From the NCBI GenBank assembly GCA_947502595.1, contig CANNAM010000003.1, positions 62,001-126,000 on the forward strand: 64,000 nt of DNA, given 5' to 3'. Origin of the DNA: an uncultured Marinicella sp. GTDB taxonomy: Bacteria > Pseudomonadota > Gammaproteobacteria > Xanthomonadales > Marinicellaceae. A program made the position numbers and the translations under genes. Positions 2,668 to 12,575 of this stretch are shown piece after piece (the first letter of the stretch is position 1; the number at the start of each line of letters is the position of its first letter). The notes below the pieces were generated by a model that searched no databases, was not told the origin of the DNA, and was given only the letters and a program-made list of their open reading frames with translations.

Positions 2668-4814
2668 AACTGAAAAGCCTGCTGTTCAATAAAAACCTGC
2701 CAATTTTACTGTTGGTGGTGACTTTATTAACGGCCTTGTACCTTTTGGGTACAGCCGTTCAAGGTACAGAGCAGTTCAATCGCATATACATTTGGCTGTT
2801 TGCAGCTTCGGTATTGGCGGTCATTATCTTGACCCTGATTATTGTGCAGCGGGTGGTGTGGCTGATCATCAAGCGAAGAAACAACGAACCTGGCATCCAG
2901 TTAACCACTCGCATGGTTTTGATGTTCACCAGTTTGTCTTTGCCACCGGTGATTGTGGTGTATTTATTTGCCACCATGCTGGTCAATCAATACGTAGACT
3001 CTTGGTTTGATGTGGCCACCGATGAAGCATTGAATGATGCGATTAAATTAGGCAACATCTTTCTTGAAACGCAAACTTTCACCCACCTGAATACAGGCAA
3101 AGACATTGCAGCAGAGTTGGCTGAAATTGACCCACTGAATCAAAGCATTTATTTGGACCGCTTACTTGATGCCTCTAAAGCCACATCGCTGAGCATTTAC
3201 AGTTCTGGCGGACAACTTATCACCTCAACGTCAATAGACCCGCTCAGCTTTGTACCTCCTAACTTGCCACAAAACACCCTCAGCGAGGTGAGCAACAACC
3301 GCAATTATGCGCGTGTGGAGCCATTAGGCAGCGAGGGATTACAAGTAAGGATTGCAGTGCCCATCAGCAGCAATCGTTCGATCAGTTTAGGCCAAAGCCG
3401 TATTTTACAAGGCCTGTTCTCAATCCCGGAAGAATACAAAAAACTGGCCATTAACATTGAAACCCAGTCACACGAATACGACAAACAAAATTACCAGCGC
3501 CAACAGCTGAAAAGTACTTTTCTGATTATCTTATCCATTGTGCTATTAATCAGTGTTTTATTGGCAATGCTGAGGGCTTTTTCTTCGGCGCGCAGACTGG
3601 TTGAGCCCATTAAAATGTTGTCCGAAGCAACCGCTGCAATCACCAAAGGTAATTTCAGTAAAATCATCCCGGTGGACTCCAAAGATGAATTGGGTTTATT
3701 GGTCCAATCATTCAACTCCATGTCCACCCAAATTGCCACATCCAGTGCAGTGGCTCACCGCGCCCAAATTGATGCAGAAAATCAACGGGCCTATTTGGAA
3801 AGTGTGATGTCACATTTAACCAGCGGGGTGATCAGTATTGACAATGATTTCCGAATTTTATTGAGTAACGAAGCCACCAAAAAAATCTTACACCTGGGTG
3901 ACCGCAGTGTCATCAATCAGAACATTGATTACTTGGCCATGAAAAACCCAACTTTGTTGCCTTTGATTGATTTAATCAAACAAAAAGTTTCTGACCAAAC
4001 CAACTACTGGCAACAAGAAGTGCTGATAGCTGAAGATTCTTTACGCCGAATTCTGTTGGTTCGCGGCAGCCAAATCAGCGAAACTGAAATGGATGGCGGC
4101 GGTCATGTGATCGTGTTTGATGACCAAACCATCATCAACCAAGCTCAACGAGATGCGGCCTGGAGTGAGGTAGCCAGACGCTTGGCACATGAAGTAAAGA
4201 ACCCCCTGACCCCCATACAGTTATCAGCAGAACGCATGCACATGCGCTTCAGTGGTAAGCTGTCAAAGGAAGAGGATGAAATCCTTGATCGTGCCACTCA
4301 GACCATCGTCTCACAAGTGGAGAACTTAAAAACTTTGGTCAACGCTTTTTCTGATTATGCCAAGCCACCCGAGTTAAAAAAAGAACTGGGTGGCTTACAC
4401 CAATTAATCAATGAAATGGTGGACTTGTACAGCTTGTCCCAGCCCGGCATTCAGTTCCAAGTCAACTTAACTGAGCCGGAGCCTAGGTTGCTACTAGACC
4501 GAGGTCGCATGACACAACTTTTAACCAACTTAATCAAGAATGCGCAAGAAAGTGTGGATCAGGGCGACATCAAAATAGACATCACCACCACAACCACCAA
4601 AGACGAATTAATTCTTACCATCAGTGACAATGGCCATGGTTTCGCCCCAGAAATATTTGAGCATGTTTTTGAACCCTATGAATCAACAAAACAGGGTGGC
4701 TCCGGCTTGGGCCTGGCGATTGTGAAAAAGATTGTTGAAGAGCATGGTGGACAAATCACTGTACAAAACCACGAGCACGGTGCAGTTATCAGCGTGTATT
4801 TACCGATTGCGTGA
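2664..4814 (+). CDS. NtrY-like membrane sensor histidine kinase
   Basis: This is a 716-residue transmembrane histidine kinase of the NtrY type. The start is taken as ATG 2664, overlapping the upstream stop; the 16-residue extension from TTG 2616 lies inside the DUF4390 gene. Order of parts: two or three N-terminal membrane segments (about 12-30, 42-65 and 84-107), a periplasmic sensor stretch, another membrane helix near 285-305, a HAMP domain, a PAS domain, a HisKA domain with the phospho-accepting His in RRLAHEVKNPLTP, and an HATPase domain with N box NLIKNAQES and G boxes DNGHGF and GSGLGLAI. The usual response-regulator partner NtrX does not follow; the next gene is an aldehyde dehydrogenase. 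Its output regulator must be encoded elsewhere or be lost. Confidence 0.9.
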   Translation: MKLKSLLFNKNLPILLLVVTLLTALYLLGTAVQGTEQFNRIYIWLFAASVLAVIILTLIIVQRVVWLIIKRRNNEPGIQLTTRMVLMFTSLSLPPVIVVYLFATMLVNQYVDSWFDVATDEALNDAIKLGNIFLETQTFTHLNTGKDIAAELAEIDPLNQSIYLDRLLDASKATSLSIYSSGGQLITSTSIDPLSFVPPNLPQNTLSEVSNNRNYARVEPLGSEGLQVRIAVPISSNRSISLGQSRILQGLFSIPEEYKKLAINIETQSHEYDKQNYQRQQLKSTFLIILSIVLLISVLLAMLRAFSSARRLVEPIKMLSEATAAITKGNFSKIIPVDSKDELGLLVQSFNSMSTQIATSSAVAHRAQIDAENQRAYLESVMSHLTSGVISIDNDFRILLSNEATKKILHLGDRSVINQNIDYLAMKNPTLLPLIDLIKQKVSDQTNYWQQEVLIAEDSLRRILLVRGSQISETEMDGGGHVIVFDDQTIINQAQRDAAWSEVARRLAHEVKNPLTPIQLSAERMHMRFSGKLSKEEDEILDRATQTIVSQVENLKTLVNAFSDYAKPPELKKELGGLHQLINEMVDLYSLSQPGIQFQVNLTEPEPRLLLDRGRMTQLLTNLIKNAQESVDQGDIKIDITTTTTKDELILTISDNGHGFAPEIFEHVFEPYESTKQGGSGLGLAIVKKIVEEHGGQITVQNHEHGAVISVYLPIA

Positions 4815-4867
4815 TGACAGCAAAACCAGGACAATAGACCAACAACCATGAGCATGCTAAGGATCCT

Positions 4868-6226
4868 ATGAATAAGCAATTAAAATCAATGCAGTCTTTA
4901 CCACCACTGAGTTTTGCAACCCGGGTTAAGCATTTGAAACAACTGGCTGTGGTGATAAAGAAAAATCAAGACAAAATCATTGCAGCCATCAGCCAAGATT
5001 TCTCTCACCGCTGCACAGAAGAATCTCTGTTGGCTGAAATCATGGTTTGTTTGGATGAAATCAACCATACTTTGAAACACATCAAACAATGGGTCAGGGC
5101 CAAAACCTGGCACGCTGATTGGAAGTTTTATCCTTCTAAATGTTCAGTGACTCCACAAGCCAAAGGTGTGGTTGGCGTTATGGCGCCGTGGAACTACCCG
5201 TTTAACCTGGTGATTGAACCCTTGGTGGCCGCCATTGCTGCTGGCAACCGAGTCATGATTAAACCCTCTGAGGTGACAGAACACACAGCAGCGCTGATCA
5301 AGGACTTGATGGCTGAAGTGTTTTCCCCTGATGAGGTTTATGTGGTGCTGGGCGATGTGGGCGTTGCCAATCAATTCAGCAGCATGCCATTGGATCACCT
5401 TTTATTTACCGGCTCCAGCGAAGTGGGTAAAATCATTATGCGCAATGCCAGCGAGCATTTAACCCCGCTGACATTAGAATTGGGTGGCAAGTCTCCGGTG
5501 TTGATTGACAATAACTATGCACTGGAAAAGGCCGCCAAAAGCATTGTTAAAGGCAAATGGTTCAATGCCGGCCAAACCTGTTTAGCACCTGATTATATCT
5601 TGATTGAAAAAGACCGCATTGCAGCACTACTCGACTGTTTAAAGCAAGAGGTGGCTAAAACCTACCCCGACCCAAACAACAATCTAGATTACAGCTGCAT
5701 CGTTAACCCGCAACACCAACAACGATTACAAGACCTGCTTAAAGACATACCAGCAGCCAATATTCACACCATCGGCACACCTGGACAAGGGCAAAAATTA
5801 AGTCCTACACTGGTTGTTGATCCGCCGTTGACTCATCCAATCATGGAATCTGAGATATTTGGGCCCATATTGCCTATTGTCAGTTGCGATGATTTGGCCG
5901 CAGGCATCCAATTCATCAATCAAAGAGACAAACCGCTGACCCTGTATTTATTCAGTAATGATCATAAAATCATTCAAACAGTGCGTGAAACCACCCAATC
6001 AGGTTCATTGGCCGTAAATGAAACTTTGGTACATTTTGCACAACGGAACCTGCCCTTCGGCGGAATTGGTAACAGCGGCATGGGTAGCTACCATGGCTAC
6101 CAAGGCTTTGTTACCATGAGTCACATGAAATCAGTATATTACCAATCAAAAATCAACTTTAATGACATGGTCAGGGCGCCATTCACATCCATCAAACGTA
6201 CTTTTATCAGCTTTTTGAATCGATGA
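4868..6226 (+). CDS. Aldehyde dehydrogenase, coniferyl-aldehyde type
   Basis: This is a 452-residue NAD(P)-dependent aldehyde dehydrogenase that oxidises an aldehyde to the acid. The cofactor site shows APWNYPFNL and FTGSSEVGK. The catalytic Glu lies in TLELGGKSP and the nucleophile Cys in FNAGQTCLAPDY. The APDY continuation after the Cys and the C-terminal LPFGGIGNSGMGSYHG are typical of coniferyl/fatty aldehyde dehydrogenases (class 3-like). The exact substrate cannot be told. An AAGGA ribosome site lies just upstream of ATG 4868. It is 53 bp from the kinase gene, so cotranscription is possible. Confidence 0.9.
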   Translation: MNKQLKSMQSLPPLSFATRVKHLKQLAVVIKKNQDKIIAAISQDFSHRCTEESLLAEIMVCLDEINHTLKHIKQWVRAKTWHADWKFYPSKCSVTPQAKGVVGVMAPWNYPFNLVIEPLVAAIAAGNRVMIKPSEVTEHTAALIKDLMAEVFSPDEVYVVLGDVGVANQFSSMPLDHLLFTGSSEVGKIIMRNASEHLTPLTLELGGKSPVLIDNNYALEKAAKSIVKGKWFNAGQTCLAPDYILIEKDRIAALLDCLKQEVAKTYPDPNNNLDYSCIVNPQHQQRLQDLLKDIPAANIHTIGTPGQGQKLSPTLVVDPPLTHPIMESEIFGPILPIVSCDDLAAGIQFINQRDKPLTLYLFSNDHKIIQTVRETTQSGSLAVNETLVHFAQRNLPFGGIGNSGMGSYHGYQGFVTMSHMKSVYYQSKINFNDMVRAPFTSIKRTFISFLNR

Positions 6227-6250
6227 ACCGTGCGCCGAAAACAGGTGATT

Positions 6251-6276
6251 GTTAAATTTTGTTAAACTGGGTTAAA
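6251..6276 (+). promoter_or_regulatory. Three in-phase GTTAAA direct repeats, likely response-regulator box
   Basis: Three exact copies of GTTAAA start at 6251, 6261 and 6271, each separated by 4 bases, giving a 10-bp period equal to one helical turn. They lie 37 bp before the start of the OmpR-family regulator gene. Tandem half-sites with 10-11 bp periodicity are the usual target of PhoB/OmpR-type winged-helix dimers (CpxR uses GTAAA repeats with similar spacing). The simplest reading is autoregulation of the operon, which is inferred. A possible -10 (TAAAAT at 6274-6279) overlaps the last repeat. Confidence 0.6.
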
Positions 6277-6312
6277 ATAACCTCACTACTGGCTAAGCAC
6301 ATAGAATAAGGA

Positions 6313-6990
6313 ATGAAGGTATTTATTTTAGAAGACGACATTGACCAAGCCCAATTAATTGAGCACTGGTTAAAAGAAAAAGGACATGCATGCCAATGCT
6401 TTGAGAATGGTCGTGATTTTATTGAGAAGTTGCCATTCGAACAGCCTGATTTACTTATCTTGGATTGGAACTTACCTGTTATCAATGGCTTGGAAGTATT
6501 GAATTGGGTCAGGTCCAGTGAACACAAAGATTTACCCGTTATTTTTGTAACCACTCGAAGCCATGAAGATGACTTGGTTAAAGCCTTGGAGCAAGGTGCC
6601 GATGATTATTTGGTCAAACCAATAAAACAAAATGAATTGATAGCAAGGTCTAATGCGTTGCATCGCAGACATGGTAACTTTCAAGGCCAGCCAAGCTCAA
6701 CAGAGCCTTTCATTTTTAACCCCAATGAAAACAGCATTACTTTTAATGAAAAATCCGTAAAACTGACCGCCAAAGAATACCAATTAGCCTATTATTTTTT
6801 CAGCAATCAAGACCGATTAATTTCACGTGACTACTTGTTAGAAACCATTTGGACCAAACGATCATCCATCACCACCAGAACGGTCGACACCCACATCAGT
6901 CGGTTACGCAAAAAACTGGCTTTAGATGGCGGCAGTGGTTGGAAATTGGTTTCGGTTTACCACAAAGGTTATCGCCTGATTAAAGTATAA
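6313..6990 (+). CDS. OmpR/PhoB-family response regulator
   Basis: This is a 225-residue two-domain DNA-binding regulator. The receiver domain (1-115) has the acidic pair ED at 7-8, the phospho-accepting Asp51 in LILDWNLP, the conserved Thr near 80 (VTTRSHED) and Lys near 101 (DYLVKPIK). The C-terminal winged helix (about 125-223) ends with the recognition-helix pattern RTVDTHISRLRKKL and the wing VYHKGYRLI. The AAGGA site abuts the ATG with almost no spacing, which is unusual. It is the first gene of the GTPase/OmpA/kinase operon and the obvious candidate to bind the upstream GTTAAA repeats. The probable phosphodonor is the hybrid kinase four genes downstream, although that kinase carries its own receiver and no HPt is visible. 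Confidence 0.93.
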   Translation: MKVFILEDDIDQAQLIEHWLKEKGHACQCFENGRDFIEKLPFEQPDLLILDWNLPVINGLEVLNWVRSSEHKDLPVIFVTTRSHEDDLVKALEQGADDYLVKPIKQNELIARSNALHRRHGNFQGQPSSTEPFIFNPNENSITFNEKSVKLTAKEYQLAYYFFSNQDRLISRDYLLETIWTKRSSITTRTVDTHISRLRKKLALDGGSGWKLVSVYHKGYRLIKV

Positions 6991-7017
6991 TCAACGGTAT
7001 ATAAGGAGCTTATATTA

Positions 7018-7413
7018 ATGACAGAAAAGAACAATGACTCAGTTGACCAAATAAGAAACATACTGTTTGGTGAGCAAACCAAGAACATTGAAAACAAATT
7101 CGCCAAACTCGAAGCTGACATCAGCAGTCAGTTCAGTGACATAAAAAAGCAATTAGATGCCATGAATAAACAACTCAGCGGCAACCTGAAAAAAATGGAA
7201 AGCCAAACCTCTCAAAATCTCAACGATTTACAAACCGATCAAAGTGATCGCATGCAAGCCATAGAGGACAGCTTGAATAATAAAATCATTGAAACTGAAG
7301 CCAGTATCCTGAGTGAATTACAAGACAAGTCCAATGACTTAGACCAACGCCTCACACACCGCAATGAGCTGTCCGACCTGTTAAGAAAGATGGCCGACCA
7401 GATTTCTGAATAA
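7018..7413 (+). CDS. Small coiled-coil protein of the GTPase operon
   Basis: This 131-residue hydrophilic protein has no signal peptide or membrane segment. From about residue 20 to 125 it is almost entirely heptad-patterned, with regularly spaced Leu/Ile and many Lys, Glu, Asp and Gln, so a long coiled coil is expected. I do not recognise a named family. A good AAGGAG site precedes ATG 7018, and the gene lies 27 bp after the regulator and 7 bp before the OmpA-domain gene. It may be a scaffold or adaptor between the membrane protein and the GTPase; this is inference from position only. Confidence 0.8.
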   Translation: MTEKNNDSVDQIRNILFGEQTKNIENKFAKLEADISSQFSDIKKQLDAMNKQLSGNLKKMESQTSQNLNDLQTDQSDRMQAIEDSLNNKIIETEASILSELQDKSNDLDQRLTHRNELSDLLRKMADQISE

Positions 7414-7420
7414 ATAAGCC

Positions 7421-9226
7421 ATGAGCAATGACCGCGAACAACTCAAAGCGCTGCTGCTGAGTGAGGAAATTGCTCAACTTAAAGCACTCCAAGAGCTGCT
7501 GCAGAACAAACAAAAGTTCAGTGAAAAAGTCAGCGAAGTTTTAGACCCTGCTACTGATTTGGCCTTTAAAGCCAACCCTGCATTTGAGAAAAAACTTTCT
7601 AAAATTGACCCCCAATCCTACGTTGAGGCCATCAAGGCCAATAAACAAACATTTATTGATGCCTTGTTACCAATTATAGGCCCGATGATCAGAAAATCTG
7701 TGACATCCTCAATTCGCCGCTTCGTGGCTGATGTCAATCGAGCCGTAGAAATGGGTGTTTCAGCCAAAGCTTTAAAATGGCGTTGGCTGGCCTTCAGAAC
7801 AGGTGTACCATTCACCGAAATCGTCTTCAACAACACCATAGAATACCAAGTTCAACAGGTTTTTTTAATTGATAACCACAGTGGCTTATTGATTACCCAT
7901 GTCGGTCAGGAAGAACTACTGCACCAAGACAAAGACGCCATATCTTCCATGCTTACTGCCATACAAGACTTTGTCAAAGACTCCATGGGCAGTGATGGTG
8001 AAGGCTTGTCTGCAGCAGAATTAGGGGATGATTTGCTGTGGTTAATTCATGGCAGCAAAGCAAATATAGCTGCCGTCATTAAGGGCGCCCCAACCCAACG
8101 TTTGAATGATGCCATCACCACAACTTTAGAGCACATTCACATCGAGTTCAATCAGCAATTGGCTGAGCCTAATGATTGGAACAACAATGTAGAACTTAAA
8201 ACTGAATTAGAAAAGTTATTGGTAACCAAAACCCAATCAGAAGACGAAGAGCAACAACAGGGCATTAACTTTTGGCCATGGTTACTGGTGGTATGTGGCT
8301 TACTTGCTTGGTGGGGCTGGTCTGCTTACCAACACAAGGTTACGCTCAACAAAATCACCAACCAATTGAATCAGACGGCTGGGTTTATGTTGACAGGCCT
8401 TGAGTATGATGGTGGCCAATTCATTGCCACAGGGCTCAAAGACCCATCGGTCGAGTTCAAAAACCTTGCAGACAACCTGACAGTCAACAGCACACCTTTT
8501 CTGTCATTGGCAGATGACATCATCGTCAAAAGGGTCAAAAACATACTCAATGATGAGCAGCTTGAGGTCACAAGTATTGATAATCAAGTGACCATCCAAG
8601 GCCGGTCAGCCAAAGACCCCGCTTGGCAACAAAAAATTACTTTAATTCAACAACTTCCTGGCGTTGCCCAATTGCACGATGCAACCCAAAAGATACCCCC
8701 CAAAGCCACCCTAGCAGATTATTTAGCCAACAACCCGCCACCAGACAAATTGGTCGTCAAGCCAATCAACGACACCTTGTTTATCTCTGGTTTAGCCAGC
8801 CAAGAAAATTTGACCGCCTTCAATCGTTCAATAGAACAATTTGGCAAGGTTGATGCCAGTCAAGTTGAAATCATAAACCGCAAAGAGTTGACTCAATACA
8901 TCAACCGCAGTCCACTGAACTTCAGCCAAACCAGACAAATCAATGAGACAGGTCTCAAACATTTATCCACCATCCTGAGTGCGCTGAATAAGATCAGACG
9001 ATTGAACACAAACACCAGCATCAAACTAACCGCGCAAAGTGACTGCCAAGGCTCAATTGAGCAAAGCAATACCAACAACCAAGCCAGATTAAATTTGGTG
9101 CAAATCTATTTGGTTGATAACGGCATACCCAGTAAACACATACAAACTGCAGTCATTGCATGTACCTCGACCACCAATGAAGTCGATGCAGATAAAATAG
9201 GAGTTTGGTTTGAGGTGCTGTTATGA
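7421..9226 (+). CDS. Bitopic inner-membrane protein with OmpA-like C-terminal domain
   Basis: This 601-residue protein has three parts. Residues 1-280 are cytoplasmic. The segment around 145-250 (FLIDNHSGLLITHVG, then a TAIQDFVKDS motif) looks like a longin/roadblock-type fold of the kind that partners small GTPases; this is my pattern reading and is unproven. A single membrane helix lies at about 283-303 (NFWPWLLVVCGLLAWWGW). The periplasmic part contains a BON-like stretch (about 365-425) and ends in an OmpA-like peptidoglycan-binding domain from about 499 (LNFSQTRQINETGLKHLS). The protein would thus tie the cell wall to the cytoplasm. Its stop overlaps the GTPase start as ATGA, so the two are co-translated and probably work together. 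Confidence 0.82.
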   Translation: MSNDREQLKALLLSEEIAQLKALQELLQNKQKFSEKVSEVLDPATDLAFKANPAFEKKLSKIDPQSYVEAIKANKQTFIDALLPIIGPMIRKSVTSSIRRFVADVNRAVEMGVSAKALKWRWLAFRTGVPFTEIVFNNTIEYQVQQVFLIDNHSGLLITHVGQEELLHQDKDAISSMLTAIQDFVKDSMGSDGEGLSAAELGDDLLWLIHGSKANIAAVIKGAPTQRLNDAITTTLEHIHIEFNQQLAEPNDWNNNVELKTELEKLLVTKTQSEDEEQQQGINFWPWLLVVCGLLAWWGWSAYQHKVTLNKITNQLNQTAGFMLTGLEYDGGQFIATGLKDPSVEFKNLADNLTVNSTPFLSLADDIIVKRVKNILNDEQLEVTSIDNQVTIQGRSAKDPAWQQKITLIQQLPGVAQLHDATQKIPPKATLADYLANNPPPDKLVVKPINDTLFISGLASQENLTAFNRSIEQFGKVDASQVEIINRKELTQYINRSPLNFSQTRQINETGLKHLSTILSALNKIRRLNTNTSIKLTAQSDCQGSIEQSNTNNQARLNLVQIYLVDNGIPSKHIQTAVIACTSTTNEVDADKIGVWFEVLL

Positions 9227-9699
9227 AATCTAAAAAAATCTGTATGATTGGTCGCTTTGCCGTGGGCAAAACTTCATTGGTTGACCGCTACGTAAAAAAC
9301 CAGTTTTCAGAAAAATACCAAACCACGGTTGGGGTTTCAATCTCAACTAAAATCATTGATGTAACCACAAAATTTGTGATTTGGGACATTGCTGGCTTTG
9401 AACAGAAGAATCACTACAAACCTTACCTCAGAGGGGCTCATGCCATCATCTATGTGGTCGATGCCACTGAACCTGAATCCTTACAAACTTTAGACCAAAT
9501 TATCCAAGATTCTCCAGAACTCAAGGCCTTACCAGCAGTGTGCTTTATCAACAAAGCAGACTTAGTCGATAACATCATGTGGCAAGATCAATTCAATACA
9601 AAAATCAACCAACTGACCAAGCACAGTTATTGGACCAGTGCCAAAACAGGAGACAATGTTGAAGCTGGGTTTGTTGCACTCTCACACCTTATATCGTGA
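9223..9699 (+). CDS. Ras/Rab-like small GTPase
   Basis: This is a 158-residue single-domain small GTPase. All five G motifs are visible: P-loop GRFAVGKTS (10-18), switch I Thr34/Thr35 (YQTTVG), G3 WDIAGFE (54-60), G4 NKAD (110-113) and G5 TSAK (138-141). Aligned by eye to Ras, the residue equal to Gly12 is Phe12, and the catalytic Gln61 position (DTAGQE) is Phe59. Both changes predict weak intrinsic hydrolysis and reliance on a partner. There is no lipidation motif, so membrane recruitment would come from the adjacent OmpA-domain protein. It overlaps the upstream gene (ATGA) and the downstream kinase gene (GTGA). Confidence 0.92.
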   Translation: MKSKKICMIGRFAVGKTSLVDRYVKNQFSEKYQTTVGVSISTKIIDVTTKFVIWDIAGFEQKNHYKPYLRGAHAIIYVVDATEPESLQTLDQIIQDSPELKALPAVCFINKADLVDNIMWQDQFNTKINQLTKHSYWTSAKTGDNVEAGFVALSHLIS

Positions 9700-11105
9700 G
9701 TTTACCTGCTGCAGTTCTTAACAAAGTCTACCAACACTACCGCGCCAGTGACTGGTGTATCATCAGCTTAAATGAAGACAACTTAATCACCAATGCCAAC
9801 ACCACTGCACGCAAACACTTTCCATTCATCGAATTACAAACTGACATCAGGTCTGCGTTACCATTATTTGCCAGCGAAGCAATGGATGAAGACTTTTTCA
9901 TACCCTTTTATAACCATGAGGCACACGTTTATGATGTTCATTTCATGTGTGAGAACAAGCAAAAACACATCATCATGGTGCCGGTTGATATCGTCCATGA
10001 ACAAGTCCAATACAAGCAACAAATTGCCCATGAACAAGCCATCGAGAAGTTACGCCTGCAGTACTTATTTACTACATTAGAAAGCGCTCATGATGAACTG
10101 AAGCAAGCCAATTCTGCCAAATCATTCTATATATCAGCTTTATCACACGAAATCGGCAACCCAATAACCGCCATAAAAGGCTACACCCAACTGCTTTCAG
10201 AAGGATTAATAGAAACAACAAAAGCCATCAATATTATCGGTAAAAATGCCGAAAAAATTCAGCAAATCATCAGCCAAACTTTGGACTATGATCAACAGCA
10301 CAACAGCTTGAATAATTTTAAACTGAACCCTGCAGAAATGATTGATGATGTTTTCAATAGTTTCCATATACAGGCTAAAAACAAAGCCCTGTTGCTAGAT
10401 AATCAAGTGGCCCCAGAAATCAACATCAACACCAACAAAACCAAATGGGGACAAATTTTCACCAATCTAATCAGCAACGCCATTAAATACACTGAATCTG
10501 GTGGCATAACTGTTCGCTCAACAGTTGAAAGTGGTCGGTTGCATATCGACACCATTGATACCGGATGTGGCATGAGTACAACATTCCAACAACAGCTGTT
10601 TACTGCATGGAGTCGTGAACCCAACAACCAAGTCCATGGCAATGGCATTGGCTTGGTTATTTCTAAAATGTTGGCTGAACAGCTGGGTGCTGAACTACGC
10701 TTACACGCCAGTGGCCCCCAAGGCAGCCACTTTCGGTTCTCTATCGCCTACCACAAACCACTGAATTCACAACGTATATTGCTGGTTGATGACGACCATG
10801 ATTGTTTGAAATTATTTAAATACTACTTAACTCAAGCTGGACACCAAGTCAAAACAGCTGATTCAATTAAAGCCCTCAAAGCCAAAATCACAAGCAATGA
10901 TTTCGACACTTTGATAAGTGACCTCAACTTAAGCGATGGACAAGTACATCACGCTTATAATGAAATTTGTAGCCAATTCTCCAAAGTCATCGTTATGACG
11001 GCCAATCCAACAGCTGATAAACAACAAGAGTTGGTTAACATTGGCTTTGATCAGGTACTCAGCAAGCCCTTACAACAAGAGCAGCTGCTGAACAGCATCA
11101 GCTGA
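9696..11105 (+). CDS. Soluble hybrid histidine kinase with C-terminal receiver
   Basis: This 469-residue protein starts at GTG 9696, overlapping the GTPase stop. There are no membrane helices, so it is cytoplasmic. The first 110 residues look like a PAS-type sensor. A linker helix leads to HisKA with the phospho-accepting His151 in SALSHEIGNPITAIKG. The HATPase domain (about 230-350) has NLISNAIKYTESGG, DTGCGM and GNGIGLVISK. A receiver domain follows from 359 (RILLVDDDHD), with phospho-accepting Asp409 and Lys near 455. No HPt domain is present. Its translation is coupled to the GTPase, suggesting that it reads GTPase or tether status; the OmpR-type regulator at the operon head is the likely output. 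Confidence 0.9.
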   Translation: MSLPAAVLNKVYQHYRASDWCIISLNEDNLITNANTTARKHFPFIELQTDIRSALPLFASEAMDEDFFIPFYNHEAHVYDVHFMCENKQKHIIMVPVDIVHEQVQYKQQIAHEQAIEKLRLQYLFTTLESAHDELKQANSAKSFYISALSHEIGNPITAIKGYTQLLSEGLIETTKAINIIGKNAEKIQQIISQTLDYDQQHNSLNNFKLNPAEMIDDVFNSFHIQAKNKALLLDNQVAPEININTNKTKWGQIFTNLISNAIKYTESGGITVRSTVESGRLHIDTIDTGCGMSTTFQQQLFTAWSREPNNQVHGNGIGLVISKMLAEQLGAELRLHASGPQGSHFRFSIAYHKPLNSQRILLVDDDHDCLKLFKYYLTQAGHQVKTADSIKALKAKITSNDFDTLISDLNLSDGQVHHAYNEICSQFSKVIVMTANPTADKQQELVNIGFDQVLSKPLQQEQLLNSIS

Positions 11106-11196: not shown

Positions 11197-12117
11197 ATGG
11201 ACGATTACATTTTCTATATCATCCTTGGTGTGTTCGGCATCATATTTCTGAAAAGTGTGTTTGTGGTGGTACCACAGGGCTTTGAATTTACCGTTGAAAG
11301 ATTTGGTGAATTCAAACGTGTATTTTCACCTGGTTTGGGCTTAAAGGTGCCCTTTATGGAACGCATAGGCCGAAAAATCAACATGATGGAACAAGTGGCC
11401 AATGTACCATCACAAGAAGTCATTACCCGTGACAATGCTGTGGTTACAGTTGATGGTGTGGTTTTTTATCAAATCCTAGACAGCGTTAAAGCCGCCTATG
11501 AAGTCAATCGACTGGAGTATGCCATTCTGAATTTAACCATGACCAACATCCGTACTGTATTGGGTGCAATGGATTTAGATGAATCACTGTCTAAACGTGA
11601 TGAAATCAATCACCGTCTTTTGGCTGTGGTCGATGAAGCCACATCTCCTTGGGGCGTCAAAGTCACTCGGATTGAAATCAAAGACATCAAGCCACCACAT
11701 GATTTGGTCGCATCGATGGCCAGACAAATGAAAGCAGAGCGTGAAAAGCGAGCACAAATTTTAGAGGCCGAAGGTTCACGTCAATCTGACATTTTACAGG
11801 CTGAGGGTAAAAAGCAAGCCGCCATATTAGAGGCCGAAGGCTTGAAAGAAGCGGCGTTTCGTGAAGCTGAAGCACGTGAGAGAGCGGCCGAAGCTGAAGC
11901 CAGAGCCACCGAAATGGTGTCCCAAGCAATCGCTGCTGGAGACGTCAACGCAATCAATTATTTTGTGGCTCAAAAATACTTGGATCAGTTTGGTAAATTT
12001 GCCAACTCACCCAATCAAAAAACCATGATACTGCCTATGGAAGCCACCGGTATATTAGGTTCATTGGCTGGTATAACTGAACTGGCTAAAGACTTAACTG
12101 ATAAGAAAAAATCATGA
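11197..12117 (+). CDS. qmcA: SPFH/stomatin-family membrane protein (QmcA-like)
   Basis: This 306-residue protein has one N-terminal membrane helix (about 4-24) followed by an SPFH (band-7) domain containing VVPQGFEFTVERFGEF and DGVVFYQI. A long alanine/glutamate-rich coiled coil follows (about 170-240, with repeated ILEAEG units). SPFH proteins form large membrane-associated ring assemblies and affect membrane-domain organisation and protease activity. The adjacent, overlapping NfeD gene is the standard partner. QmcA is the nearest E. coli namesake. Confidence 0.9.
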   Translation: MDDYIFYIILGVFGIIFLKSVFVVVPQGFEFTVERFGEFKRVFSPGLGLKVPFMERIGRKINMMEQVANVPSQEVITRDNAVVTVDGVVFYQILDSVKAAYEVNRLEYAILNLTMTNIRTVLGAMDLDESLSKRDEINHRLLAVVDEATSPWGVKVTRIEIKDIKPPHDLVASMARQMKAEREKRAQILEAEGSRQSDILQAEGKKQAAILEAEGLKEAAFREAEARERAAEAEARATEMVSQAIAAGDVNAINYFVAQKYLDQFGKFANSPNQKTMILPMEATGILGSLAGITELAKDLTDKKKS

Positions 12118-12575
12118 TTATCGGATTCTTAATTTCTCTCACCCCTTGGCATTGGTTAACCGCAGCGGTGTTGTTGTTGGTTATTGAGATGTTGATTGGC
12201 TCGTATTACTTACTGTGGGTCAGCTTTGCTGCCTTCTTTGTGGCCATCATTCAATGGATGTTTGGTATTGCATGGGGCGCGCAAATGGTGATGTTCACCC
12301 TCATATCAATCTTGTCTGTGATTGCGTGGTATATATACGACCAAAAGAGAGACAAAACCAGTACCCGGCCACATTTAAACAAACGTGGACACCAATACAT
12401 TGGGCGAACTTTTCAACTCAGTGATGCCATCATCAATGGTGTAGGCAAAATCAAGGTTGATGACTCAACCTGGAAAGTCAAAGGCCAAGATGCACCTCAC
12501 CAGACCACTGTCAAAGTTACCGGTATTGACGGTACCGTATTAATTGTAGAAACACTTGGAGATAAAAACTCATGA
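12114..12575 (+). CDS. NfeD-family membrane protein
   Basis: This 153-residue protein has two or three N-terminal membrane helices (about 12-30, 32-50 and 55-75) and a C-terminal soluble OB-fold-like domain typical of short NfeD proteins (the GVGKIKVDDSTWKVKG pattern). NfeD proteins bind SPFH proteins such as QmcA. ATG 12114 overlaps the qmcA stop, and its own stop overlaps the next lipoprotein gene, so all three are co-translated. Confidence 0.9.
   Translation: MIIGFLISLTPWHWLTAAVLLLVIEMLIGSYYLLWVSFAAFFVAIIQWMFGIAWGAQMVMFTLISILSVIAWYIYDQKRDKTSTRPHLNKRGHQYIGRTFQLSDAIINGVGKIKVDDSTWKVKGQDAPHQTTVKVTGIDGTVLIVETLGDKNS

Follow-up and report, generated by a model that had tools for sequence, protein, structure and literature searches.

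The closest described counterpart of the locus analysed here is the gene neighbourhood of the Group 1 Rup small GTPases, described from genomes in 2014 by Wuichet and Sogaard-Andersen. In the parts of that paper drawn on here (PMC4316618), Group 1 Rup proteins are said to lack the glutamine (Gln) of the G3 motif, to occur without MglB, and to have three conserved neighbours, specifically a coiled-coil protein, a protein with an unknown domain often followed by a transmembrane (TM) helix and an OmpA domain, and an output protein, typically a cyclic di-GMP (c-di-GMP) enzyme or histidine kinase, with an invariant Gln in its N-terminal part. The same parts record no Rup member as experimentally characterised by then and no partner with a recognised regulator fold, the only hint being the glutamine of the output protein. 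Among prokaryotic groups, Rup was reported to stand nearest to eukaryotic Rab, Ras and Rho (PMC4316618, PMC4915359), and the trees in the consulted part of PMC4915359 do not resolve that relation. In the later literature, among open-licence papers, no functional study of Rup and no paper naming a bacterial longin domain was found. Here we describe a five-gene block in a window of 64,000 nucleotides (contig CANNAM010000003.1, positions 62,001 to 126,000) from an uncultured Marinicella sp., which appears to be a Group 1 Rup neighbourhood and in which the formerly unknown domain is predicted to be a longin domain, an identification new here.

Other described systems share parts of this composition. 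Eukaryotic Rab GTPases and their longin guanine nucleotide exchange factors (GEFs; Mon1-Ccz1, TRAPP, Fuzzy-Inturned) likewise pair a Rab-like GTPase with a longin-fold protein at a membrane, a partnership described, in the excerpts consulted, as a eukaryotic expansion from roadblock-MglA pairs; the present system, in contrast, is bacterial and operon-encoded, carries its predicted longin domain on a transmembrane OmpA-type protein, and has a kinase output instead of vesicle traffic, the GEF role being putative. MglA-MglB of Myxococcus also pairs a small GTPase with a roadblock/longin superfamily protein and has ties to response regulators, but here the partner is a predicted longin rather than a roadblock protein, the GTPase is Rab-like (the best 60 of its 763 Protein Data Bank (PDB) matches are all Rab-type), and no roadblock (Robl_LC7) match was found in the operon or in the 3.24 Mb genome, which is 99.8% complete. 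The actinobacterial conservons (CvnA-D) are similarly operons of a kinase, a GTPase, a GTPase regulator and a protein of unknown function; according to the portion of PMC4316618 used, however, their kinase is membrane-bound and their regulator is a roadblock protein, whereas the kinase here looks soluble and the longin domain sits on a membrane protein.

All five genes lie on the + strand, and their identities and junctions (27, 7, -4 and -4 bases), as given in a first-pass annotation made from the letters alone, were reproduced from the open reading frame positions. The -4 overlap and the GTG start of the kinase recur at five related loci (L001, L002, L004, L005, L006); the stoichiometric assembly that the annotation read from translational coupling is putative. 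Its suggested roles in polarity or motility control are speculative, as nothing found here bears on them directly. Its remark that it knew no named system with this composition gave way to the Group 1 Rup neighbourhood as set out in the consulted text (PMC4316618). Every Group 1 Rup feature examined was found: a single-domain GTPase of 158 aa (range 150-240) without the G3 Gln, a coiled-coil neighbour, a domain-TM-OmpA neighbour at 7421-9226 (its OmpA match being weak in the window protein), an output protein with a Gln in a column that we assume to be the invariant one of that paper, and no MglB or other Robl_LC7 protein. The assignment draws on motifs and neighbours. The block differs from the published description in having an OmpR-type regulator as a fifth gene and, as argued below, in that the unknown domain would be a longin and the N-terminal domain of the output protein PAS-like.

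A model based on 32 sequences was made of residues 1-274, the cytoplasmic part of the OmpA-type protein. In the model, helices extend to residue 139 and are followed by strands at 143-151 and 157-162, a helix at 171-189, strands at 198-201, 204-209 and 214-221, and helices at 226-242 and 257-267, so that the longin order b-b-a-b-b-b-a-a is reproduced in the prediction, with structural matches over residues 141-272. Foldseek against the PDB placed Mon1-Ccz1 first (7e-4), then TRAPP subunits and MglB, with Ragulator lower. The 50 rows listed by VIA-align were all longin- or roadblock-type (Z 10.2-12.8, at most 131 residues), where the adaptor and COPI subunits are presumed to be longin-type. Roadblock was considered as a name for the domain and rejected, the longin alignments being longer and higher-scoring; yet the two folds are closely related, and that the domain belongs to the superfamily is more certain than which of the two it is.

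Longin homology also appears detectable at the sequence level, through Asgard longins to TRAPP and Mon1. Without iteration, the bacterial longin half matched archaeal proteins encoded near Ras-like GTPases (L041 4.5e-27, L063 3.6e-21, L050 1.3e-18). Thirty Asgard longin candidates, two of which (L150 and L166) are the same frame, came from searches with two Pfam models, Longin and Sybindin, and the bacterial longin profile matched 16 of them vs 2 of 30 Asgard roadblocks. This profile, A1, is a 32-row alignment of bacterial longin domains that excludes archaeal sequences and two short fragments (L011, L028), as well as L008 and L015, which were hidden by antisense frames. In hhalign, A1 reached Prob 97.5 (P 8e-12) against the 30 Asgard longins vs 55 against Asgard roadblocks, and its controls (PAS, its own helical half, the GTPase) gave 0.6-1.9, with PAS at 0.6. 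Against A4, a hand-picked and partly trimmed set of 12 of the 30 Asgard sequences, Prob was 97.4 (P 1e-11) over residues 140-270, and these 12 in turn matched BET5 (9.3e-7), Trs23 (1.4e-5), MON1 (2e-4) and AP-3 sigma (4.6e-4) in the PDB. The Asgard longins and Asgard roadblocks scored only 9.6 with each other. The GTPases scored 62.7 against the Asgard longin set, on a C-terminal stretch where that set includes fused GTPase sequence.

Several observations weigh against the longin identification. The Asgard set was itself gathered by model matches of which none was above the cut-off, so that the PDB step is its anchor. Confidence in the longin model is moderate, with a mean predicted local distance difference test score (pLDDT) of 73.6; the longin blocks range over 63-95, and the conserved helix 171-189 reaches only 63-68. 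The Foldseek E-values are modest. A direct search of PDB sequences with A1 gave five matches, none a longin (best E 0.51), and the longin link therefore needs either the structure or the Asgard step. Pfam longin families matched in 3 of 20 longin halves, all below the cut-off (Fuz_longin_1 at 0.0026 in L031 and 0.17 in L012, Sybindin at 0.0031 in L009) and beside other sub-cut-off families, and the window's own longin half matched none. Over the 32 A1 members the commonest Pfam families were unrelated (DUF6120 in four, DUF445 in three), and among eight archaeal candidates Robl_LC7 matched in L050 (0.026) and L063 (0.044).

Some of the archaeal and bacterial longin proteins have further features. 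In the Asgard sequences L138 and L149, a candidate longin domain is followed in the same frame by the P-loop of a Ras-like GTPase; only L138 was also matched by the bacterial profile. Longin-GTPase fusions were reported in Asgard archaea previously, according to the consulted part of PMC10933270. At L063 (10938-13871) and L070 (3-2543), a longin-type domain lies within large proteins adjoining archaeal Ras-like GTPases, and in L063 that domain and the end of an AAA_16 match overlap. The longin proteins of L167 (4085-7009) and L168 (5799-8678) are ∼960-970 aa long with a duplicated helical part, and BON-like repeats were seen by eye in the former.

The longin protein and the GTPase occur together. 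In the class, A1 matched 24 of 274 sampled genomes, the window's own included, and in 22 of these the longin gene is followed on the same strand by a Rup-type GTPase gene; in another, G268, the contig ends at the longin gene and the GTPase is on other contigs, and the last, G177, gave no GTPase match. Across 151 genomes of the order, 43 had both genes, one the longin protein only, four the GTPase only and 103 neither (Fisher p 7e-32), and the two genes lay side by side, always in one order, in 41 of these 43, the other two having them on different contigs. Within the genus, the longin domain was found in 12 of 18 genomes, and the same 12 carry the GTPase. The first-pass annotation had named co-occurrence in this genome only, or GTPase and OmpA-domain homologues never adjacent elsewhere, as grounds for abandoning a functional module; the counts for the order clearly point the other way. 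Its idea of a conserved module in which a Ras-like GTPase and a kinase are joined to a bitopic protein, probably anchored in the wall, is thus backed by the genome samples. The conservation of the block indicates more than chance, and chance adjacency and a single-genome curiosity were both ruled out by it across the sampled genomes and loci.

At 37 bacterial loci found via the GTPase, which presumably include Gamma-, Beta- and Zetaproteobacteria, Bacteroidota, Nitrospirales and Lentisphaerae, the longin domain lies upstream in 35, the coiled-coil motif upstream in 28 and the PAS-like domain downstream in 34, with all three in 26; the profiles behind this count were built largely from the same loci, so it is descriptive, and the class and order samples are tests less tied to them. 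GTPase, longin protein and partners form a coherent conserved module. Counterexamples were found as well. In G419 (87% complete) no GTPase matched, and the longin match is 130 bases short of a contig end; the GTPase matches of G310 (6e-11) and G321 (3e-11) are weak and may be other GTPases; and only 232 and 1354 bases of contig precede the GTPases of G393 and G344, respectively, whose longin genes may have been cut off. L006 starts within the GTPase. At L039 (Chloroflexi), the 2.2 kb before and the 1.7 kb after the GTPase contain no longin, coiled-coil or PAS-like match, and among 43 archaeal Ras-like loci a longin domain lies upstream in two and downstream in two more (L050, L063).

The motifs GRFAVGKT, WDIAGFE and NKAD were read in the GTPase, and the same motifs were present in 32 of 32 bacterial relatives, none of which has the G3 Gln; this count leaves aside GTPases outside a 140-190 aa filter or missed in picking reading frames. 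Its closest relatives are from Marinicella, at 75-83% identity (L001-L004, L006). In its own genome it is the only single-domain match to the Ras model, two others lying in frames of 907 and 497 aa. With no second such match and no roadblock match, the longin protein is the sole candidate regulator of the roadblock/longin superfamily found there.

A short motif at the start of the coiled-coil protein resembles one at the start of the longin protein (hhalign Prob 82.5, P 1e-5, against 0.4 and 0.7 for controls), and at L007 the two proteins are fused into one; they may dock on a common partner or on each other.

As for the output, the model of the N-terminal part of the kinase shows a PAS-like domain of ∼100 residues at its start, leading into a long helix (residues 100-154). 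All 50 matches listed by Foldseek for this domain were PAS-type and none was a longin, which serves as a control for the structure search. In an alignment of 35 output domains (A2, without L008, L015, L025 and L026), the Gln109 column holds Gln in 34; in the sole other row, L017, a Gln occupies the adjacent position, and misalignment is possible. By Pfam, the PAS-like domain precedes GGDEF-EAL (L009, L018), a class III nucleotide cyclase (L010), an HD domain (L012), sigma-54 activators (L019, L027) and hybrid kinases (L007, L017), and HD-GYP motifs follow it in L171-L173 and L175. Stand-alone PAS-like proteins of 125-136 aa end the module without a catalytic output at L031, L034, L035, L037 and L058 (Saprospiraceae or Chitinophagales), and L014 and L030 have an extra PAS-like gene beside the kinase. 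The outputs thus appear to share a PAS-like N-terminal domain with a near-invariant Gln, an identification, partly from a model, that is new here; the nucleotide cyclase, HD-GYP, sigma-54 activator and stand-alone PAS-like forms go beyond the outputs named in the consulted part of the 2014 text.

An OmpR-type regulator adjoins 11 of 14 kinase-type gammaproteobacterial copies, specifically those of the window, L001-L005, L007 (on the other strand), L017, L020, L174 and L176. None was found beside L167, L169 and L170, the last two being called kinase-type from 57-60-bit matches only. Among the matches listed, no comparable OmpR match accompanied non-kinase copies or Bacteroidota kinase-type copies. 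This pattern agrees with a dedicated phosphorelay arm in some of the Gammaproteobacteria, and the kinase with its regulator is one exchangeable output among several. Neither this exchangeability nor the longin domain and the shared PAS-like Gln domain had been noticed in the first-pass annotation.

The longin/OmpA protein likely has a single TM helix. Residues ∼281-302 are uncharged and Trp-rich and form its hydropathy peak, 1.33 over 19 residues; since this is below the usual TM cut-off of 1.6 and the GTPase itself reaches 1.13, the helix is likely rather than proven. Among 10 full-length relatives, the Pfam OmpA match was above the cut-off in three (L009 1.2e-11, L167 7.6e-10, L007 4.8e-8), below it in four (L002, L012, L017, L027) and absent in three (L004, L010, L020). 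Complete Bacteroidota longin proteins stop soon after the longin domain, at 258-300 aa. The core of the module is thus the coiled coil, longin, GTPase and PAS-like output, to which wall anchoring has been added.

We read the block, with reasonable though not strong confidence, as a Group 1 Rup module with a phosphorelay output, in which a longin platform, a Rab-like switch and a PAS-reading kinase lead to an OmpR-type end point. The bitopic protein would be held to the cell wall by its OmpA-like end, its periplasmic OmpA/BON part would sense a change in the wall or envelope, and its cytoplasmic longin domain would serve as a membrane platform for Rup, on which, by analogy to Mon1-Ccz1 and TRAPP, it would most likely promote GDP-GTP exchange. 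Rup-GTP would then bind the soluble hybrid kinase at its PAS-like domain and alter kinase activity, the kinase would act on the OmpR-type regulator to change transcription, and the near-invariant Gln of the PAS-like domain may complete the GTPase active site and so end the signal. Against this scheme stand the putative nature of the contacts between longin, GTPase and PAS-like domain, the absence of an Hpt domain (Pfam) in the five proteins although the kinase is hybrid, the Bacteroidota copies without TM and OmpA parts, by which wall anchoring is not essential to the module, and genome G177 (99% complete, ∼250 contigs), which keeps the coiled-coil and longin genes while no such GTPase was found in its assembly. 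In the latter (L168, G177:C169:5000-20000, ∼2868-8678), the pair lies beside two further frames, presumably PilT/PilU-like; a type IV pilus link is possible, or the switch was lost.

That the longin resemblance is merely the arrangement shared by PAS- and profilin-like folds, without common ancestry, seems very improbable: longin and roadblock domains do have a PAS-like fold, as does profilin (consulted part of PMC3521125), but the operon's own PAS-like domain retrieved PAS and no longin among its 50 listed matches, and the profile-profile scores set Asgard longins (97) well apart from PAS (0.6). What the longin protein does is less settled, and a GTPase-activating protein (GAP) or mere scaffold, as with MglB, GATOR1 or Ragulator, with another GEF or spontaneous exchange, is an unlikely but serious alternative. 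MglB and Ragulator are among the structural matches; the best and longest, however, are longin domains, including Rab GEF subunits, not roadblocks (hhalign 97 vs 55), and the near-invariant PAS Gln may offer a GAP element elsewhere, an argument from structure and not from activity. That Gln may instead be a structural residue of the helix coupling the PAS-like domain to its output, with no role in GTP hydrolysis, a possibility that we rate below catalysis in trans but do not take lightly, given its position near the start of the long helix into the kinase; it is nevertheless kept in the stand-alone PAS-like proteins and in the extra copies at L014 and L030, and 32 of 32 GTPases lack a Gln of their own. 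Signal flow may also run in reverse, as in MglA-RomR or the conservons, with the kinase setting the state of a GTPase that acts on envelope or motility. The ties of MglA and CvnD systems to two-component proteins (PMC4316618, in part) and the PilT/PilU-like frames at L168, named by motif, lend this some support, but the PAS-like domain before many unrelated outputs (cyclase, HD, sigma-54 activator) reads more naturally as GTPase to output, as does the DNA-binding regulator beside most kinase-type gammaproteobacterial copies, and we consider reversed flow improbable.

Table 1. Features of the Rup block and their positions in the window.
Feature	Position	Strand	Basis or remark
OmpR/PhoB-type response regulator	6313..6990	+	Pfam Response_reg 7e-28, Trans_reg_C 4e-20; putative phosphorelay end point
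Cytoplasmic coiled-coil protein of Rup module	7018..7413	+	N-terminal motif xxIRxILFG at ∼7039-7113
Longin - transmembrane - BON-like - OmpA-like protein	7421..9226	+	Pfam, model, structure search
Helical N-terminal part, residues 1-139	7421..7837	+	Model me6188f6c2a99, pLDDT mostly 52-77
Predicted longin domain, residues 140-272	7838..8236	+	AlphaFold model, Foldseek/VIA-align, hhalign to Asgard longins
Likely single transmembrane segment, residues ∼281-302	8261..8326	+	Hydropathy maximum 1.33
BON-like segment, residues 365-421, presumed periplasmic	8513..8683	+	Pfam BON E 0.0087, fails cut-off
OmpA-like, presumed peptidoglycan-binding domain, residues 503-577	8927..9151	+	Pfam OmpA E 0.016, fails cut-off
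Rab-like small GTPase, Rup family, 158 aa	9223..9699	+	Pfam Ras 7e-23
G3 motif WDIAGFE	9382..9402	+	Phe at the Ras catalytic Gln position
Soluble hybrid histidine kinase, GTG start	9696..11105	+	PAS-like domain, HisKA, HATPase_c, receiver (Response_reg)
N-terminal PAS-like domain and signalling helix of kinase	9696..10181	+	Model mda174844b41c, Foldseek
Codon of Gln109, near-invariant, candidate for catalysis in trans	10020..10022	+	Gln in 34/35 aligned output domains

The block is flanked upstream by genes for an NtrY-like kinase and an aldehyde dehydrogenase and downstream by SPFH and NfeD genes, which are retained in L001-L006 as far as the contigs extend; no match to SPFH, NfeD or aldehyde dehydrogenase was listed at L007-L036. 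The SPFH (stomatin-like) and NfeD genes (window 11197-12575) follow directly on the same strand, are kept in the Marinicella relatives, and may have transcripts or function in common with the block. The best promoter-like match upstream of the regulator agreed at 9 of 12 positions, and such matches were not commoner in the region than in shuffled sequence. Terminator-like matches on the + strand were absent from the junctions of the five genes, and one occurs within the kinase gene.

The composition of the neighbourhood was already published, and what is new here is the predicted longin identification, the PAS-like Gln domain, the further outputs and the variant with an OmpR arm. The idea of a glutamine supplied in trans, already put forward in print, would extend to output classes unnamed in the consulted part of the 2014 text. 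More broadly, and as a tentative proposal that we hold with a little less than even confidence, the Rab-longin pairing may already be present in bacteria as an operon, often envelope-anchored, and coupled through a PAS-like reader to kinases, cyclic-nucleotide and c-di-GMP enzymes, and sigma-54 activators. If so, the pairing would be older than eukaryotes, or would have been passed on together with the GTPase, which bears on whether Rab-longin control preceded eukaryotes; bacteria would also have, in this module, a route across the membrane from the cell wall to a G protein. A predicted longin protein in the same operon is a concrete candidate regulator and makes the Rup family biochemically testable with few soluble proteins, so that the identification would turn a functionally blank neighbourhood into a testable bacterial Rab-longin switch.

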